Assembly: GCA_018716485.1 (NCBI GenBank)
Contig: DVJY01000071.1
Coordinates: 1-64,000 of the forward strand
DNA length: 64,000 bases
DNA from: Candidatus Scybalocola faecipullorum
GTDB lineage: Bacteria; Bacillota; Clostridia; Lachnospirales; Lachnospiraceae
Direction: 5' to 3'
The position numbers were made by a program, and so were the translations under genes. Shown here in pieces: positions 742 through 51,274 of the stretch; positions within the stretch are counted from its first letter, which is position 1; every line of letters begins with the position of its first letter. The notes beneath the pieces are model-generated. The model was not told where the DNA came from and did no database searches. It saw nothing but the letters and a program-made list of their open reading frames with translations.

Positions 742-1452
742 TTAAAAATTTTTTTCAATAATTTGATATAAATTTTCAATGGTCTGCTGACCGCATTCAG
801 GCACATCCTGAAGCGGAAATTCTAATCCTAAATCTTCATATTTAGATAAACAAATCTTTTTAAATGGCAGTAATTCAATTTTTTCAACAGAAGAATATTT
901 CATGGCTATACGCTGAATCCGACGGATATTTTCAGGATCATCTGTCAGGCCCGGCACAACAACGTGCCTGATCCAAACGGGTAAATGTTTTTTCTCCACA
1001 ACATCAAGAAAATTAAGCACTTGCCGCAGGCTTCCGTGACAATATTTTTTATAATCCTTCTCTGAAGGAAATTTAAGATCACATAAAACAAGATCTGTAT
1101 GCTCCAAAACTTCTTCTGCCTTATCAAGATTTCCCATACCTGAAGTATCCAGTGCTGTATGAATCCCTTCCTGCTTTAACCGCCGGAACAAATCTGCACA
1201 AAAATCCGCCTGAACTAACGGCTCGCCGCCGGAAACGGTCACACCGCCGCCTCGGCATATGAAACTTCGATATCTTAAAATCTTTTTCACAAGCTGTTTC
1301 GTATCCACAGTCTGACCATTGCCGCTTATCCAAGTCTCCGGATTATGGCAGTAGACACACCGCAAAGGGCAGCCCTGCATAAAAACCACACACCGCACGC
1401 CCGGACCGTCAACTGCCCCCATACTCTGAAATGCACTGATTTCCCCAATCAT
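742..1452 (-). CDS. pflA: Pyruvate formate-lyase activating enzyme (radical SAM)
   Basis: Radical-SAM activase that installs the glycyl radical on PflB using S-adenosylmethionine and a [4Fe-4S] cluster. The cluster motif is C28-x3-C32-x2-C35 in FMQGCPLRCVYCHNPETW, and the SAM-binding GGE-type motif is VTVSGGEPL. Length (236 aa) matches PflA (about 246 in E. coli). I start at the ATG at 1452, whose A is the last base of the pflB stop; a GTG one codon upstream is also in frame, but a GAGG motif 7 bases before the ATG favours the latter. The one-base overlap implies translational coupling with pflB. No clear terminator follows the stop at 742. Confidence 0.95.
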   Translation of the reverse strand: MIGEISAFQSMGAVDGPGVRCVVFMQGCPLRCVYCHNPETWISGNGQTVDTKQLVKKILRYRSFICRGGGVTVSGGEPLVQADFCADLFRRLKQEGIHTALDTSGMGNLDKAEEVLEHTDLVLCDLKFPSEKDYKKYCHGSLRQVLNFLDVVEKKHLPVWIRHVVVPGLTDDPENIRRIQRIAMKYSSVEKIELLPFKKICLSKYEDLGLEFPLQDVPECGQQTIENLYQIIEKNF

Positions 1453-3683
1453 CACATCGCCTCATGAAATGTTCTCGCAATAACTTCTTTTTGCTGCTCT
1501 TTAGACAATTTATGGAAGTTCACCGCATATCCCGATACACGGATTGTCAGATTCGGGTACTTTTCCGGATGTTCACAGGCATCGATCAACATCTCACGAT
1601 TCATCACATTAACATTCAAATGCTGCGCCATCTGCGCAAAATATCCGTCAATAATCACTGTCAGATTTTTAAGGCGTTCTTCCTCATTCTGTCCCAAAGC
1701 CTTTGGCACGATTGAAAATGTATTGGATATGCCATCTTTGCAGACATCATACGATAACTTGGCAACAGAATTTAATGAAGCCAGTGCGCCGTTCTTTTCC
1801 CGGTTATGCATCGGGTTGGCTCCCGGAGCAAACGGCGCGCCTGCTTTTCTGCCATCCGGCGTACTTCCAGTCTTCTTACCATAAACAACATTGGAAGTAA
1901 TTGTCAAAATAGATAAAGTATGTTCCGCATTTCTATAAGTAGGATTTTTCTTTAATTCCTCATAAAAGAGTTTCACCTGTTCTTTTGCAATATCATCAAC
2001 TCTGTCATCATCATTGCCGAACGCCGGATAATCCCCAACAGTCTCAAAGTCTTTAATCAAGCCTTCTTCATCTCTGATTACTCTCACTTTTGCATATTTG
2101 ATAGCCGACAACGAATCTGCCAACACAGACATACCTGCAATGCCGAACGCCATAAATCTATGCACATCTGTATCGTGAAGCGCCATCTGTGTTTTTTCAT
2201 ACGCATATTTATCATGCATATAGTGAATAATGTTCATTGCATTGACATAAGTTCTTGCGAGCCACGGGCGGTAAATATCCATCAATTCTATGACTTTATC
2301 ATATTCAAGATACTCTCCTTTATATGGCTCATGTTCAGGCGCCACCTGAATTCCCGTCTTTTCATCGCGCCCGCCGTTTAAACTCATCAAAAGCAGCTTT
2401 GCCAAATTAGCCCTTGCGCCAAAAAACTGCATATCTTTTCCGACACGCATTGCGGATACACAGCAGGCAATGGCGTAGTCGTCGCCGAATTTCGGCCGCA
2501 TCACATCATCATTCTCATACTGAATCGCATCTGTATCGCAGGATACTTTTGCCGCAAAACGTTTAAATGCTTCCGGAAGCTTTTCAGACCAAAGCACCGT
2601 CAAATTAGGTTCTGCTGACGGCCCAAGATTGTATAAAGTATTGAGCATACGAAATGTACTTTTTGTTACCAATGTTCTGCCATCTTCACCCATACCGGCC
2701 AACGCTTCTGTAATCCACATCGGATCACCGGCAAATAATTCGTTATATTCCGGTGTTCTCAAATGTCTCGCCATACGCAGTTTCATGACAAAGTCATCAA
2801 TGATTTCCTGTGCGCCGGATTCATCAAGGATTCCTTCTCTAATGTCTCTTTCAAAGTAAATATCCAAAAATGTACTGACCCGTCCAAGACTCATCGCCGC
2901 GCCATTCTGTTCTTTAATGGATCCGAGATATCCGAAATAAAGCCACTGCACAGCTTCTTTGGCATTAGAAGCCGGCTGTGAAATATCAATACCGTAAATT
3001 TGTGCCATCTCTTTTAATTTGCCGAGAAAATTAATCTGCTGATATAATTCCTCAGAAAGACGGATCGTATCCTGATTCATCATCTCTCTGGCCACCGCCC
3101 GCTTATCTTCTTTTTTCTTTTCAATCAAATAGTCCACACCGTACAGTGCAACACGGCGATAATCTCCAATAATACGTCCTCTGCCGTACGCATCAGGAAG
3201 CCCTGTAATAATACCGCAGTGACGCGCTGCTTTTATTTCATCACTGTATACACGAAAGACACCGTCATTATGAGTCGTTCTGTAAGTAAACTCCTGCTCT
3301 ACTTTATCTGACAGTGTATATCCGTAAGCTTTGCACGCTTTTCTTGTCATATTTAAACCGCCGAAAGGATTGACACCCCGCTTTAACGGACGGTCGGTCT
3401 GGAGTCCGACAATAATCTCTTCATCCTTATCCAGATATCCCGGTCCAAAATTGGTCAGCGACATTGCTGTATATGTGTCAATATCCAAAACACCGCCGAA
3501 CTGCTGCTCCAAATCAAACAAATGATTGAGCTTTGTCATCAACTTCGTCGTACGCTGCGTCGGCGGGGCAAGGAAATCTTCATTACCTTCATACGGTACA
3601 TAATTCTTCTGAATAAAATCCCTTACATTAATTTCTTCCTGCCAAACGCCGCCTTTGAAACCTGTCCATTGTTCTCTCATCAT
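1452..3683 (-). CDS. pflB: Formate C-acetyltransferase (pyruvate formate-lyase)
   Basis: Glycyl-radical enzyme cleaving pyruvate with CoA to acetyl-CoA and formate, a main fermentative carbon route and a formate source for one-carbon metabolism. The adjacent catalytic cysteines are C407-C408 in IACCVSAM, and the glycyl radical residue is G718 in RVSGYAV, 26 residues from the C-terminus as in the family. Length 743 aa is close to E. coli PflB (760). The gene is transcribed with pflA. It is preceded, in order of transcription, by a promoter (3990-4018), a ZTP riboswitch with terminator (3861-3975) and a repeated leader element (3684-3756) that provides the ribosome site. Two tandem ATGs (3683, 3680) are possible starts. 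Confidence 0.98.
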
Positions 3684-3756
3684 TTCCTCTTTCCTGACGC
3701 ACCTGCTGCGTCAATAATGGTAGATTTGGAAGTTTACTCCCAAACTTTTTCCTCCT
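3684..3756 (-). repeat. Dispersed leader element, copy 1 (before pflB)
   Basis: About 73 bases found again at 39282-39357 (before glf) and 51200-51274 (before modA), always on the coding strand and ending within 0-2 bases of the start codon. Order: AGGAGG; hairpin TTTGGGAG-TAAA-CTTCCAAA (one G-U pair here); spacer; hairpin TGACGCA-GCAGG-TGCGTCA; then GGAAAGAGGAAA, the ribosome-binding site of pflB. The block from CATTATTGACG through the second hairpin to GAGGAAA is identical in all three copies. In this copy a 49-codon frame (3777 to 3628, starting MPCQFCFRRKKFGSKLPNL) runs through the element and into pflB in another frame. Confidence 0.85.
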
Positions 3757-3860: not shown

Positions 3861-3889
3861 AAAAAAAGAGCAGCATATCCATGCTGCCC
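3861..3889 (-). terminator. Intrinsic terminator of the ZTP riboswitch
   Basis: In the transcript GGGCAGCAU pairs with AUGCUGCUC (9 pairs, one G-U) across a GGAU loop, followed by seven U (3861-3867). The 5' arm uses the GGGCA of the aptamer's 3' domain (3885-3889), so terminator and ligand-bound aptamer should be mutually exclusive. Confidence 0.85.
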
Positions 3890-3975
3890 AGACGGTCGGC
3901 TTTTCAAAATGATAACTCCACTGTGTCTATCCACATCTCTGCCCTGCAGAGTTTCCGTCAGGAATTATCATCCTT
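3885..3975 (-). promoter_or_regulatory. ZTP riboswitch (pfl motif) controlling pflBA
   Basis: Reading the minus strand, AUGAUAA (3971-3965) pairs with UUAUCAU (3915-3909) to close the first domain. Inside it are the conserved CUGACGG and a CUCUGC-AGG-GCAGAG hairpin. The second domain is GCCGACCGUCUGGGCA (3900-3885), the hallmark 3' domain of the pfl/ZTP class. GACGG and CCGUC are complementary and would form the pseudoknot. A terminator overlaps the 3' domain, so binding of the folate-stress signal ZTP/ZMP should prevent termination and switch the operon on. The class was named after its association with pfl genes; assignment here is by motif and context, not by a model search. Confidence 0.88.
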
Positions 3976-38180: not shown

Positions 38181-39281
38181 TTAATTTCCAAGTTCTTTCT
38201 CTGCCAGATTAAAAGCGGATTCAATGACTTTATCCATATCATAATATTTATATTCCGCCAAACGTCCGCCCAAGATATAGTGATCCTGTGCTGCCCGGTC
38301 TCTATACTGCTCATAAAGTTTCTGATTTTTCTCGTCATTCATCGGGTAGTACGGCTCCATGCCCGGCGCCCATGCGGCAGGATATTCGCGGGTAATCACT
38401 GTTTTAGGCTGAGTACCGAATTCAAAATGTTTATGTTCGATAACGCGTGTGTACGGTGTTTCTCTGTCTGTGAAGTTCATTACAGCAACGCCCTGATAAT
38501 TTTCCTTGTCCAAGACCTCTGTTTCAAATTTAAGACTTCTGTACTCCAATTTTCCGAAACAATAGTCATACAATGAGTCCAGCGTACCCGTATACAGTAC
38601 CTTGTCCCCCATTGCATTATACATTTCTCTGTTTTCGTTATAATCAACGCCGGTTTTAATATCACAGCCTTCAAACAGTTTTTCAATCAGCACGTTGTAG
38701 CCGCCGATCGGGATTCCCTGATATAAATCGTTAAAATAATTATTATCATATGTATATCTGACCGGAAGTCGGCGGATAATAAATGCCGGAAGGTCTTTGC
38801 AGTCTCTGCCCCACTGTTTTTCAGTGTAACCTTTGACAAGCTTTTCATATATATCCGTGCCCACAAGGCTGATTGCCTGCTCTTCCAAGTTTTTCGGCTC
38901 TCCGGTAATTTTTTGTTTCTGGGTTTCAATGATTTCTTTTGCCTCATCCGGTGTGGCAATACCCCACATCTTGCTGAATGTATTCATATTAAAAGGCATA
39001 TTGTAAATCTCTCCGTGATAATTGGCTACCGGAGAATTTGTATAGCGGTTAAATTCCGCAAGGCTGTTGACAAAATCCCATACTTTTCTATTGCTTGTGT
39101 GAAAAATATGCGCACCGTATTTGTGAACGTGAATGCCTTCCACATCTTCACAATAAATATTACCGCCGATAGTATCACGTTTTTCAATAACAAGGCATGT
39201 CTTCCCCTTTTTCACCGCATGCCAGCAAAATACACCGCTGAACAAACCGGCGCCGACAACAACATAATCATATTTTTTCAT
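38181..39281 (-). CDS. glf: UDP-galactopyranose mutase
   Basis: 366-residue flavoenzyme converting UDP-galactopyranose to UDP-galactofuranose. The FAD dinucleotide motif is YVVVGAGLFSGVFC, followed by CLVIEKRDTIGGN and the substrate region KYGAHIFHTSNRKVWDF; RLAEYKYYDMDKVI near the C-terminus is typical of bacterial Glf. It indicates that the surface glycan contains galactofuranose. Its start and ribosome site come from copy 2 of the dispersed leader element, which fills the gap to the upstream deacetylase gene. Confidence 0.95.
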   Translation of the reverse strand: MKKYDYVVVGAGLFSGVFCWHAVKKGKTCLVIEKRDTIGGNIYCEDVEGIHVHKYGAHIFHTSNRKVWDFVNSLAEFNRYTNSPVANYHGEIYNMPFNMNTFSKMWGIATPDEAKEIIETQKQKITGEPKNLEEQAISLVGTDIYEKLVKGYTEKQWGRDCKDLPAFIIRRLPVRYTYDNNYFNDLYQGIPIGGYNVLIEKLFEGCDIKTGVDYNENREMYNAMGDKVLYTGTLDSLYDYCFGKLEYRSLKFETEVLDKENYQGVAVMNFTDRETPYTRVIEHKHFEFGTQPKTVITREYPAAWAPGMEPYYPMNDEKNQKLYEQYRDRAAQDHYILGGRLAEYKYYDMDKVIESAFNLAEKELGN

Positions 39282-39357
39282 GCTTTCCTCTTTCCTGACG
39301 CACCTGCTGCGTCAATAATGATAGATTTGGAAGTTTACTTCCAAACATTTTCCTCCT
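39282..39357 (-). repeat. Dispersed leader element, copy 2 (before glf)
   Basis: Same element as at 3684-3756. Here the first hairpin is a perfect TTTGGAAG-TAAA-CTTCCAAA and the second is TGACGCA-GCAGG-TGCGTCA. An ATG lies 3 bases after AGGAGG, opening a 26-codon frame (39348 to 39268, beginning [20 protein letters not shown]) that ends inside glf. The element fills almost the whole 83-base gap between two co-oriented genes, so it was inserted into, or substituted for, an intercistronic region. Confidence 0.85.
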
Positions 39358-44673: not shown

Positions 44674-46107
44674 TCAATACGCTTTTCCCCAGTAAACCAT
44701 AGCTTTTGCCGGTTTTCCGCAGCATACGCACACGTCAGAAATCTTCTCCTGTTCAAACGGCATGCATCTTGCGGTTGCTGTCGTTTCTTCTTTAATCTTA
44801 TCCTCACATGCCTGATCACCGCACCACATCGCTTTAACAAAGCCCGGTTTATGAGCAACTGTTTCTTTAAACTCTTCATAATTCTTTGCAATATACGTAT
44901 GTTTATCGCGATGTGCTCTTGCACGCTCCAGCATATCTTTTTGCATTGTTTCCAATGTATTTGCAACCTGCGCTTTAAGTTCATCCAGTGATACAATCTG
45001 TTTTTCTCTCGTGTCACGGCGCACTATAACTGCCTGATTTGCTTCGATATCTTTTGGTCCGATTTCAATTCTCACCGGAATACCGCGCATTTCAGCTTCA
45101 GAGAATTTCCAGCCCGGACTCTTTTCGGAATCATCGACTTTAACTCTGAAATCAGCAAGCGCTTCTTTTAACTTGGCAGCGGTTTCAAGCACACCTTCTT
45201 TATGCTGTGCGATCGGAATGATCATGACCTGAACCGGAGCAATTCTCGGCGGAAGCACAAGGCCGCTGTTATCGCCGTGAACCATGATAATGCCGCCGAT
45301 CAGACGGGTTGAAATTCCCCATGATGTCTGATGTACATACTGCAGTTTATTGTCTTTATCTGTATACTGGATATTAAACGCCTTCGCAAAACCATCTCCG
45401 AAGTTATGGCTCGTACCTGACTGAAGCGCCTTCCCGTCATGCATCAGCGCTTCGATTGTGTATGTTGCCTCGGCGCCCGCAAATTTTTCTTTTTCTGTCT
45501 TGCGTCCTCTGATCACCGGAATTGCCAGCACTTCTTCGCAGAAATCCGCATAAAGGTTAAGCATTAATTCTGTTCTTTCTTCTGCTTCTTCTGCCGTTGC
45601 ATGAGCTGTATGACCTTCCTGCCATAAAAACTCTCTGGAACGAAGGAACGGACGTGTTTCTTTTTCCCAGCGCACAACCGAACACCATTGATTATAAACT
45701 TTCGGCAGATCTCTGTATGACTGAATTTCTTTTGCATAAAAATCACAGAATAATGTTTCTGATGTCGGTCTGACACACAGTCTTTCCTGAAGCGGCTCCA
45801 GACCGCCGTGTGTTACCCATGCCACTTCCGGCGCAAATCCTTCAACATGGTCTTTCTCTTTCTGAAGCAGGCTTTCCGGAATAAACATCGGCAAATAGAC
45901 ATTTTCTACACCGGTCGCTTTAAAACGGGCGTCTGCTTCCTTCTGAATATTTTCCCAAAGCGCGTATCCCGCAGGTTTAAGCACCATACAGCCTTTAACG
46001 CTTGTATAATCCATTAAATCTGCTTTTTTCACAACATCCGTATACCATTGTGCAAAATCGTCTTCCATTGAAGTAATTGCTTCAACTAATTTTTTGTCCT
46101 TAGCCAT
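44674..46107 (-). CDS. proS: Prolyl-tRNA synthetase, archaeal/eukaryote-like type
   Basis: Class II synthetase of 477 residues charging tRNA-Pro. The length and the lack of the ~180-residue editing insertion place it in the ProRS type without INS, common in Clostridia alongside or instead of the 570-residue form. Motif 2 region is [15 protein letters not shown], motif 3 region is [16 protein letters not shown], and the C-terminal zinc-type cysteines are in [20 protein letters not shown]. It is controlled by a T-box leader immediately upstream and ends in a terminator. Confidence 0.95.
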
Positions 46108-46126: not shown

Positions 46127-46393
46127 TAAAAAAATTAAAAAGCCCTTTGATCCCTGCCGGATATACTCCGAACCCAAGGGACCAAAAGGCTGTCATATAC
46201 ATCTCTTTCGGCGGTACCACCCTGATTAACTGTACTTACAGTTCACTCGTCTGCCGATAACGCCGGGCTGCGCCGCGCTTTCACACGGAGGCTCCAAGGC
46301 AGGTTCCAAAACTTCCGCGTAAAAACTCTCAGCATATGTTTTCTCTCTGTACCGCTTCCGACTTTGTACTATTCCTCTTCATTGCCGTATTAT
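46127..46393 (-). promoter_or_regulatory. T-box riboswitch (proline) of proS
   Basis: The signature T-box AGGGTGGTACCGCCG lies at 46223-46209. Downstream the antiterminator competes with a terminator in which AGCCTTTTGGTCCCT pairs with AGGGATCAAAGGGCT, followed by T runs (46127-46192). Upstream is a long stem-I region; CCT in the GGAACCTGCC stretch is a plausible proline specifier codon. Uncharged tRNA-Pro should bind and allow readthrough into proS. Confidence 0.9.
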
Positions 46394-48483: not shown

Positions 48484-49548
48484 TCATTTCAGCAGCATAA
48501 TATCTTCAGGGCTGACTTTAAGGTATACCGGCATATTTTGCTGCGCCGATTCATTGACCGCAAACTTAGGCACTTTCCACCAAACCGGCGCTTTATCCGA
48601 AGCGTCTGTATTCTGCATAAAATAATGAATTTCAAAAGGCGATTCTTCTATTTCCAACAGTCTGACAGGAAAACAGTTGATCTGATCTTCGTGTTCATGT
48701 TCGTAAACCGGTATGAAATGATGTGCCCGAATACCGATATGGGTCACATCATCCGTTACTTTTCGCCCTGTCACAAGCTTTAATCCCCAGTCTGATGCTA
48801 TCACTTCATAGGCGCCCAGCATTTCAATCTTCGATATATTTTTACACCCGGTCAGCCGCGCGGCCTGGACATATTCCGGCCTGTCAAATACGGCTTTTGT
48901 CTCATCCATATGTAAAATACGGCCGTCGCCCATAACCGCCATTGAATGACACAGACGGTACAGTTCATCCCTGCTGTGGGAAACGATGATCACATGGCCC
49001 TTAAACTGATCCGTCATCCGCTTCATTTCTCTCTGAAGCGCATCCCGCAGGTAGGTATCCAGCGCTGAAAAAGGTTCATCCAGCAAAATCATCTCCGGTT
49101 CCGAAGCCAACATACGTGCCAGAGCCGCCCGCTGCTGCTGACCTCCGGACAGCTGACCCGGCAAACGTCCTTCCAATCCTTCAAGCCCCATCATGGCAAT
49201 AAATTGATGGGCCTTTTCCTGCCGCTGCCGCCGGTCTTTAACCTGAATACCGGCTTCCACATTTTTTTGTACAGTCATGGTCGGAAAAAGGGCATAATTT
49301 TGGAAAAGATATCCCGTCTTTCTCATCTGCGGCGGCAGATTGATTTTCTGCCGGGCATCAAAAAGCACCTTGCCGTCTAAGACAATGCGTCCTTCATCCG
49401 GCTTCTCAATACCGGCTATACATTTAAGAGTCATACTTTTTCCGCATCCGGAAGCGCCTAAAATACCCAGACTGTGATCTTCCGTCTTAAAATTTACATC
49501 AAGACAGAATCCTTTAAATTTCTTTTTTATATCGACTTCAAGACTCAT
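48484..49548 (-). CDS. modC: Molybdate ABC transporter, ATP-binding protein
   Basis: 354 residues. ATPase domain with Walker A GILGASGCGKSMTLKCIAG, Q-loop FQNYALFP, signature LSGGQQQRAALARML and Walker B EMILLDEPFSALD. The C-terminal ~110 residues form a TOBE-like regulatory region (THIGIRAHHFIPVY). It overlaps modB by 4 bases. It energises molybdate (or tungstate) uptake. Confidence 0.93.
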   Translation of the reverse strand: MSLEVDIKKKFKGFCLDVNFKTEDHSLGILGASGCGKSMTLKCIAGIEKPDEGRIVLDGKVLFDARQKINLPPQMRKTGYLFQNYALFPTMTVQKNVEAGIQVKDRRQRQEKAHQFIAMMGLEGLEGRLPGQLSGGQQQRAALARMLASEPEMILLDEPFSALDTYLRDALQREMKRMTDQFKGHVIIVSHSRDELYRLCHSMAVMGDGRILHMDETKAVFDRPEYVQAARLTGCKNISKIEMLGAYEVIASDWGLKLVTGRKVTDDVTHIGIRAHHFIPVYEHEHEDQINCFPVRLLEIEESPFEIHYFMQNTDASDKAPVWWKVPKFAVNESAQQNMPVYLKVSPEDIMLLK

Positions 49549-50231
49549 CTTCTGTCTCCCTTAACAATGTTCATCAGAAAAATAATGATAAAAGCAATCA
49601 GTACAACAACTACTGTCCAAAAACCGGCTGTCGCATAATCGCCGTCCTGAATGACCATTGCGATTTTCTGCGCGATTGTCCCCGTCTTTCCCGGAATATT
49701 TCCGGCCAGCATCGAAGTGGCCCCGTATTCTCCCAAGGCTCTGGCGAATGTCAGCACAGTGCCTGAAAGAATGCCCGGCCTTGCGGCTGGAACGGCCACT
49801 CTCCAAAAAATTTCTGACTCTCTCATACCAAGTGTTCTTCCTGCATAGATCAAATTTTGATCAATCTGCTCAAACGCTGCCCGGGCATTTCTGTACATGA
49901 GCGGAAAAGCAATAACGACTGCCGCAATGACACATCCCGCAAAGCTTTGGACAACAGCTGTATTAAAAGTTGTATCCAAAAAACGGCCGACAAGCCGGCG
50001 TCTGCTGAAAATCATCAAAAGAAAAAAGCCGCATGCTGTCGGCGGCAGCACCATCGGCAGTGTCAGAATACCGTCAATAACCGCACGCCATCGATTTTTC
50101 ATGCGTGCTATTTTCCACGCCGCAAAAATACCTAAAGAAAATGAAATTACTGTCGCTATAATTCCTGTTTTTAAAGAAATAAACAGAGGCCGCCAGTCCA
50201 GCGCTGCCAGCCATGCACCCAATTCTTCCAT
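49545..50231 (-). CDS. modB: Molybdate ABC transporter, permease
   Basis: 228 residues with five or six helices and the EAA-type cytoplasmic loop (RAAFEQIDQNLIYAGRTLGM) that docks to ModC, plus RALGEYGATSMLAGNIPG, highly typical of ModB. The start at 50231 has GGAGG 5 bases upstream. A longer frame to 50282 would have to be translated through a strong hairpin and is rejected. Confidence 0.93.
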   Translation of the reverse strand: MEELGAWLAALDWRPLFISLKTGIIATVISFSLGIFAAWKIARMKNRWRAVIDGILTLPMVLPPTACGFFLLMIFSRRRLVGRFLDTTFNTAVVQSFAGCVIAAVVIAFPLMYRNARAAFEQIDQNLIYAGRTLGMRESEIFWRVAVPAARPGILSGTVLTFARALGEYGATSMLAGNIPGKTGTIAQKIAMVIQDGDYATAGFWTVVVVLIAFIIIFLMNIVKGDRR

Positions 50232-50244
50232 TGCTTCCTCCGAA

Positions 50245-50273
50245 AACAGCCGGAGCCAAATGCTCCGGCTGTT
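50245..50273 (-). terminator. Intercistronic hairpin between modA and modB
   Basis: A perfect 12-base GC-rich stem (AACAGCCGGAGC with GCTCCGGCTGTT, 5-base loop) is followed by only four T. It lies directly after the modA stop and 14 bases before the modB start. Probably a leaky terminator or mRNA-protecting hairpin that keeps ModA in excess. Confidence 0.7.
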
Positions 50274-50278
50274 TATAA

Positions 50279-51199
50279 TCATACGTTAGTATCAAATAAA
50301 TATTGGTCAAAAATTGCTTTTGCTTCGTCCGAAATAATAAATACATAAAATGCGTCGGCAGCTACATTCACCGTCTCATCTGCCTGATCATTTTGGATTC
50401 TGCATACCGGGTAGATCACATTGCCGGTCAGATCATAGCTGACCATCTCAAGAATATCCAGATCATCCTCAAATCCATATGTATCTGAATAATAAACGGT
50501 TCCAACCTCGCATGAACCTTCAATAACTGCTGTCCGAACTTTACTTACGTTTCCCTGTTCGCTGATTTCCACACCGCCGAGGGCGTCGGAAATTTCCTGC
50601 GTCGTAATTGCTGCCGGATCGTCTGTCTCAGGAAGCATACCGGCATTGACCATAGCCTGCCGTGTATATCTGCCTACAGGGACACTGCCGTCAGCCAGCG
50701 CAATGCTTTTGGCATTTCCGATATCTTCCAGTCCTGTCACTGCTGTATCACTGTCTTTATAAGTTACCACACATACCTGATTATTGACAACATCCTTTCT
50801 TGTGCCATCCACGATAAATCCTTTTTCTTCAAGTTCGTTCATCTGTGTCTGCGCTGCAGAGAAGAAAATGTCACACTCAAATCCTTCTTCGATCTGCGTC
50901 ATCAATGTGCCTGAACTATCTGCGTTAAAAAGAATTTCCACATTCGGATAAGTTTCATTAAACGCTGAGGCAACTTCTTCCATGACGTCGCTGAGACTTG
51001 CGGCAATAAATACGTTGATTTCCCCTGCCACTTCACTGCCGTCCTCACTTTCGGCCGCTGTCTGAGCAGTCGTTTCGGTATCCTCTGCCGCCGGAGTTTC
51101 AGTGCTGCTTTGACCTTGTGCATTGTTGCCGCATCCGGCCACCATCGTCAATGTAAGCGCCGCGGTCAGACATGCATTTAAAATTTTTGCCTTTTTCAT
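50279..51199 (-). CDS. modA: Molybdate-binding lipoprotein
   Basis: 306 residues. A lipoprotein signal with lipobox MVAGCGNN puts the mature N-terminus at Cys23, followed by an Ala/Glu/Thr linker. The type II solute-binding domain begins EINVFIAASLSDVMEEVASA, the oxyanion-binding start of ModA proteins, with FNADSSGTLMTQIEEG further on. It captures molybdate or tungstate outside the membrane for ModBC. Translation starts directly after copy 3 of the dispersed leader element. The operon is controlled by a promoter overlapped by a ModE-like operator. Confidence 0.93.
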   Translation of the reverse strand: MKKAKILNACLTAALTLTMVAGCGNNAQGQSSTETPAAEDTETTAQTAAESEDGSEVAGEINVFIAASLSDVMEEVASAFNETYPNVEILFNADSSGTLMTQIEEGFECDIFFSAAQTQMNELEEKGFIVDGTRKDVVNNQVCVVTYKDSDTAVTGLEDIGNAKSIALADGSVPVGRYTRQAMVNAGMLPETDDPAAITTQEISDALGGVEISEQGNVSKVRTAVIEGSCEVGTVYYSDTYGFEDDLDILEMVSYDLTGNVIYPVCRIQNDQADETVNVAADAFYVFIISDEAKAIFDQYLFDTNV

Positions 51200-51274
51200 C
51201 CTTTTCCTCTTTCCTGACGCACCTGCTGCGTCAATAATGGCAGATTTGGAAGTTTACTTCCCAACTTTCCTCCT
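51200..51274 (-). repeat. Dispersed leader element, copy 3 (before modA)
   Basis: Third copy of the element at 3684 and 39282, with the same second hairpin and ribosome site. The first hairpin has one mismatch, and two bases are missing just after AGGAGG compared with copies 1 and 2. Upstream, a frame with AAAGGA 8 bases before its ATG (51322) encodes MFDGFSVKNGEADVSKRRK and stops inside the first hairpin because of those missing bases. Restoring them would join it to the [17 protein letters not shown] frame seen in the other copies, so this may be the longest form of the element. Confidence 0.8.

Follow-up and report, generated by a model that had tools for sequence, protein, structure and literature searches.

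Immediately upstream of three unrelated genes (pflB, glf and a modA-like gene) in the analysed stretch of 64,000 nucleotides, hereafter the window, there are copies of a short sequence of about 63 nt, very probably a non-autonomous mobile DNA element, which inserts precisely at a ribosome-binding site (RBS) motif and rebuilds the RBS with a Shine-Dalgarno (SD) sequence of its own. The copies are dispersed and have defined ends, orthologous sites in related organisms are empty, and the element has no coding capacity, as expected for a mobile element of this kind. An initial annotation of the window had described a mobile-looking leader element with its own ribosome site, an interpretation that our analysis supports, although the limits of the element and its relation to the leader had to be revised.

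The repeated unit and its boundaries

A 20-nt core, TTGACGCAGCAGGTGCGTCA, is found on the minus strand of the 64-kb window at 3695-3714, 39296-39315 and 51215-51234, compared with zero occurrences expected in shuffled sequences. Alignment of the regions around the core confirmed three near-identical copies, all in the sense orientation, sharing two hairpins and an identical 3' half, and in which the A-to-G stem change of copy 1 does keep the pairing as G-U. From the alignment of the window copies and their comparison with other copies of the same genome, the shared unit is GTTTGGAAGTAAACTTCCAAATCTACCATTATTGACGCAGCAGGTGCGTCAGGAAAGAGGAAA, 63 nt long. This length is fixed by head-to-tail pairs at C51:80317-80451 and C17:57780-57915 of the same genome, and replaces the initial estimate of about 73 bases. 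The element begins with GTTTGGAAG, directly after the SD of the host gene, and finishes with its own SD (GAGGAAA), 2, 2 and 3 nt before the start codons of pflB, glf and the modA-like gene, respectively (Table 1), so that the proposal of an own ribosome site holds. The AGGAGG formerly taken as the start of the element is the native SD of the host gene, since the sequence at this position differs among copies. The suggested replacement of 5' leaders is correct in that the element sits in the leader, but it is inserted after the native SD, ahead of the start codon, and the leader is not wholly replaced. Copy 2 occupies nearly all of the 83-nt gap between the upstream gene and glf, and pflB is taken to start at its second ATG (3680), in agreement with its orthologues.

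Two known RNA elements are also present in the window, a T-box leader upstream of a prolyl-tRNA synthetase gene, and a ZMP/ZTP riboswitch upstream of pflB. A terminator-like hairpin and its T run follow the riboswitch, and copy 1 lies between this terminator and pflB.

Table 1. Coordinates of the element copies and neighbouring features in the window
Feature	Position	Strand	Remarks
Element copy 1, pflB leader	3683..3745	-	63 nt
Copy 1, hairpin 1	3744-3725	-	followed by linker TCTACCATTAT
Copy 1, hairpin 2	3713-3695	-	followed by SD tail GGAAAGAGGAAA
Native pflB SD	3746..3756	-	AGGAGGAAAAA; pushed upstream by the insertion, outside the element; other copies differ here
pflB-like glycyl radical enzyme gene	1452..3680	-	PF02901, PF01228
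ZMP/ZTP riboswitch	3879-3975	-	Rfam RF01750
Element copy 2, glf leader	39284..39346	-	63 nt
Native glf SD	39347..39357	-	AGGAGGAAAAT
glf, UDP-galactopyranose mutase	38181..39281	-	PF03275
Prolyl-tRNA synthetase gene	44674-46107		
T-box leader	46174-46391	-	Rfam RF00230
ATPase gene adjoining the modA-like gene	48484-49548		
Permease gene adjoining the modA-like gene	49545-50282		
modA-like extracellular solute-binding protein gene	50279..51199	-	PF13531
Element copy 3, modA-like leader	51203..51265	-	63 nt; ATG 3 nt on
Native SD of the modA-like gene	51266..51274	-	AGGAGGAAA

Hairpins and subfamilies

The element is formed by hairpin 1, a conserved linker (TCTNCCATTATTG in the subfamily of the window), hairpin 2 and the SD tail. 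Both hairpins covary, with 98% of the cells paired and changes on both sides in 10 of the 14 pairs, a level reached by none of 500 shuffles, and the predicted fold as single-stranded DNA is strong (z = -5.1). In divergent subfamilies the stems of hairpin 1 are GTATGAAAGG/CCTTTCATA or GTTTGAAAG/CTTTCAAAC, again compensated, and those of hairpin 2 are GGCGC/GCGCC, GGCAGGT/ACCTGCC and others, always with compensating changes, whereas the tail varies in its letters and remains SD-like (GAGGAAA, GGAGTAAA, GGAGGTTAAA, GGAGGACAAAAA).

Some copies depart from this anatomy. The apical loop of hairpin 2 is enlarged in many copies of Candidatus Blautia faecavium (L124, L130, L133, L151, L392, L397 and L408) by an added hairpin of about 17-18 nt, for example AACGTACTCCGTGAGTAAA. 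Divergent subfamilies (L259-L285, from genomes G039, G330, G359, G217 and G174) keep hairpin 1 and the arrangement of AA before the element and of SD and ATG at its end, with a different second half that is often longer, up to about 99 nt, and that in some cases has an additional hairpin. Upstream of a GntR-family gene of the window's genome (L207 1501-1800, G000:C38), hairpin 1 is replaced by another palindrome-rich sequence.

Pairing of the linker (TCTNCC) with the tail was considered as a means of sequestering the SD and rejected, since on inspection it is present in some subfamilies only and the mean accessibility of the SD zone is unchanged (predicted values of 0.57 for filled and 0.55 for empty sites, p = 0.81). 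An insulating role was likewise discarded, as the variance of this accessibility is not significantly lower with the element.

Copy number and distribution

The existence of a genome-wide family was borne out. The genome of the window (2.67 Mb, 95.8% complete) has about 35 copies (35-36), all sense, besides a few truncated or decayed ones, including the partial copies at C45:3231, C38:1762 and C22:16200; a match at C5:6751 was dismissed as a chance match within another gene. A covariance model built from 37 copies detected relatives in 24 of the 397 Lachnospiraceae genomes sampled, with a patchy pattern; among the 391 genomes of a class-level sample it matched only the window's genome and G027, which share the same family. 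Two of the G027 copies are identical to copies in Hominisplanchenecus faecis CLA-AA-H246, a Lachnospiraceae species. Counted by pattern, copies are most numerous in Fusicatenibacter MAG.350 (89), followed by Candidatus Blautia faecavium (49). The element is not an artefact of MAG assembly, since copies are carried by the cultured isolates Hominisplanchenecus faecis, Blautia sp. An249 and Eubacterium sp. An11.

Tandem arrays of two to three exact 63-nt units occur. In Fusicatenibacter MAG.350 three head-to-tail elements precede one gene (L436, L438, L433), and their sequences drift towards the upstream copies. The viral contigs and plasmids searched gave no matches to the element, and a phage or plasmid origin was rejected on this basis.

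Insertion sites

An ATG or GTG comes next after the element in 146 of 166 distinct copies, and is found 5-6 nt past the element's SD in 129 of these 146, while the SD-start spacing of native genes in the window ranges over 2-14 nt; 13 further copies of the 166 are upstream members of tandem arrays. Among the 33 copies analysed in the window's genome, the codon exactly 14 nt past hairpin 2 is ATG in 28 and GTG in one, and in two others it is a TTG belonging to the tandem element that follows. The SD at the 3' end, by its fixed spacing, rebuilds the RBS before the start codon, and its conservation and spacing suggest that translation may proceed from the SD carried by the element.

On the opposite side, AA directly precedes the element in 91 of 112 copies, and in 132 of the 166 copies of the larger set, whereas it occupies the equivalent position in 7 of 39 native RBSs. 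When joined, the flanks resemble ordinary RBSs; in the window's genome 21 of 29 such junctions contain an SD core, and in at least eight copies the joined flanks restore the stop codon of the upstream gene at an overlapping ATGA; therefore, the insertion is precise, without duplication or loss. A target-site duplication was also considered, and rejected given that the left and right dinucleotides mismatch wherever the left one is not AA. The insertion thus takes place without target duplication at an RBS-like motif, composed of a purine-rich SD followed by AA^NN-ATG.

The initial annotation had the copies always flush with a start codon, which is true for most of them, but for a minority the RBS-like motif at the copy does not mark a real gene start, and some of these copies are inside the 3' ends of genes. 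Four copies of the window's genome are not at clear gene starts: L212, which falls within the final codons of a uvrC-like gene; L213 and L029, each in the 3' part of a different ORF; and L025, upstream of a 9-codon ORF that itself precedes a cobO-like gene. In all four, GTGAA or GAGGAAA stands before the element, and a start codon (ATG or GTG) follows it at a distance of exactly 2 nt. Judging from codon frequencies, such a fixed offset in every one of the four, with either of two start codons accepted, would have a chance probability of about one in a million. Since these copies keep both the SD-like sequence and the start codon at the exact offset, we read this as pointing to sequence-specific targeting of the RBS-like motif, and not just of gene starts. 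Copies away from true gene starts are in general mostly still on RBS-like motifs, and those with no start codon after the element (L101, L141 and L405) are exceptions. In L213 and L029 the 63 nt (21 codons) are read through without a stop, giving extra residues in the predicted protein.

Empty sites were found at orthologous loci. In Candidatus Blautia faecavium the purN-purD junction consists of TTAAGGAGTAA, the element and AAATG, whereas at all 29 other Blautia loci examined this junction is short and normal, contains an ordinary SD and lacks the element, and among the pflB orthologues of relatives, which have ordinary leaders, the element is present in 0 of 29. As these filled and empty sites are compared between species, we infer the movement of the element from this comparison. 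The initial annotation had named two outcomes at odds with its reading, namely copies placed at random relative to genes and orthologous genes sharing the element by ancestry, and both are excluded by the non-random positions and by the purD and pflB orthologues that do not have it.

Alternative explanations

The high similarity of the copies would also be expected if they were 5' leaders common by ancestry or gene duplication and not by insertion, but nothing further speaks for this origin: the flanks and the genes are unrelated and the orthologous sites are empty, which refutes it and leaves it scarcely conceivable. A cis-regulatory RNA, i.e. a riboswitch or protein-binding leader of a regulon whose copies are spread or kept by selection for co-regulation, would agree with the constant sense orientation, the location in 5' leaders and the covarying, RNA-like hairpins adjoining the SD. 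However, the genes hit are functionally unrelated (pflB, glf, modA-like, dnaE, pth, uppS, cbiO, metH-like and others, named by sequence), and only about two clear orthologous pairs between carriers exist among 98 downstream proteins, so it is unlikely that the targets form one regulon. In addition, some copies are located in the 3' ends of genes or ahead of very small ORFs, the tandem arrays are precise, the predicted fold has no consistent effect on SD accessibility, and the element falls below the gathering cut-off of every family in Rfam 15. We consider a regulatory RNA very unlikely. The lineage-specific structured leader RNAs of Rfam similarly have conserved hairpins directly before start codons within a single lineage, but the element, with no Rfam match and with empty orthologous sites, behaves as an insertion.

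Among mobile elements, the closest described families are the REP/REPINs and CGTC repeats (PMC3733652, PMC3116915), together with the IS200/IS605-derived MITEs. REPs are located mainly downstream of coding regions, form inverted dimers and have an unpaired GTAG/CGTC tag, and CGTC REPs have likewise been reported without a dedicated transposase (PMC3733652). The element is similar in being a short, non-autonomous palindromic family with tens of copies and tandem clusters, some REP/REPIN families having no known transposase, and in having GACG/CGTC within hairpin 2. Nevertheless, this CGTC is not an unpaired tag at the hairpin foot but is inside the stem, where it covaries with GACG and is compensatorily swapped for CGCC and others; the two hairpins differ from each other, and the copies are all sense, in head-to-tail arrays upstream of start codons, with an RBS target and their own SD. 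Membership of the GTAG or CGTC REP superfamilies is therefore highly improbable. An IS200/IS605-type (Y1 HUH) MITE mobilised by a genome-encoded TnpA is also unlikely, even if the element shares with these MITEs (PATEs) the subterminal hairpins at both ends, the strand-specific insertion in one orientation relative to the target, the absence of target duplication, the HUH-like resemblance of the right end to the left-flank target, and a strong single-stranded fold. Y1_Tnp is present in 12 of 24 carriers versus 218 of 397 genomes overall, which shows no association of the Y1 transposase with the element, and carrier G039, which is 100% complete, has no Y1 gene. None of the Y1 loci of the carriers has element copies or element-like ends in the assembled sequence, although a single Y1 copy with such ends may lie in assembly gaps, and the flanking of a RAYT gene that characterises REPs is likewise not seen at these loci. 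The geometry is also different, since hairpin 1 abuts the left boundary and leaves no room for the guide and cleavage spacing that is usual between hairpin and boundary in IS608, and the target preference of the element reaches the start codon side. A Y1 (IS200/IS605/RAYT) transposase was thus rejected as mobiliser, given the lack of co-occurrence and the non-matching ends. The window's genome does encode an IS200/IS605-type TnpA ORF (L186, G000:C36:2583-2942), whose flanks have no similarity to the element. An IS110-type element was discarded as well, as PF01548 of the DEDD IS110 transposases has no match in the window's genome (G000) or in G027.

Rickettsia palindromic elements (RPEs) insert within coding sequences. 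The element is similarly short, palindromic and tolerated inside or at the edge of genes; its 63 nt correspond to 21 codons with open frames, and in at least two copies at the 3' end of an ORF the reading frame continues through the element. It differs from RPEs in being overwhelmingly at RBSs and in supplying a new one. No description of an RBS-targeted, RBS-carrying repeat was found in Rfam or in the open-access literature. For this reason, and because the distinguishing REP and IS200/IS605 features looked for are lacking, we call it a short non-autonomous palindromic mobile element with an unusual target rule.

Discussion

The most likely explanation for our observations is a selfish element, not autonomous, that enters the RBS and then restores it. 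We propose that a recombinase or transposase acting in trans would recognise both hairpins, probably as single-stranded DNA, and join the end of the element to a target that is similar to the element's own end-to-end junction (GAGGAAA^GTTTG/GTATG, to be compared with SD-AA^NNATG in the target). Since an SD is put back 5-6 nt from the start codon, insertion would be nearly harmless to the host gene and would re-create a target, and exact tandem arrays would follow from this. The target motif is indeed matched by the end-to-end junction of the G306 subfamily, GAGGAAA^GTATGA, which also accounts for such arrays. Either a single-strand (HUH-like) or a site-specific recombination mechanism is consistent with the absence of duplication, the fixed orientation, the two hairpins and the end that resembles the target. 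No longer, autonomous copies were found among 70 additional copies, and every full copy examined is without an ORF insert. It is possible, and we suggest it only tentatively, that the element represents an undescribed class of mobile elements acting as a genome-wide RBS rewriter, in which dedicated machinery recognises SD-AA^NN-ATG, the element's own junction copies this motif, and each insertion regenerates both the RBS and the target.

Most mobile elements harm the gene control region at their landing site, whereas this element seems to persist by targeting the RBS and swapping like for like, also before essential-looking genes such as the homologues (by sequence) of dnaE, pth, uppS and cytidylate kinase. 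The annotation of carrier genomes is affected, since dozens of their 5' leaders are recent insertions. If confirmed, these findings would show how selfish DNA can spread through gene-dense genomes, would tie a recombination enzyme to a specific target motif, and would provide a natural, movable translation-start cassette for gut Lachnospiraceae, for which genetic tools are scarce.
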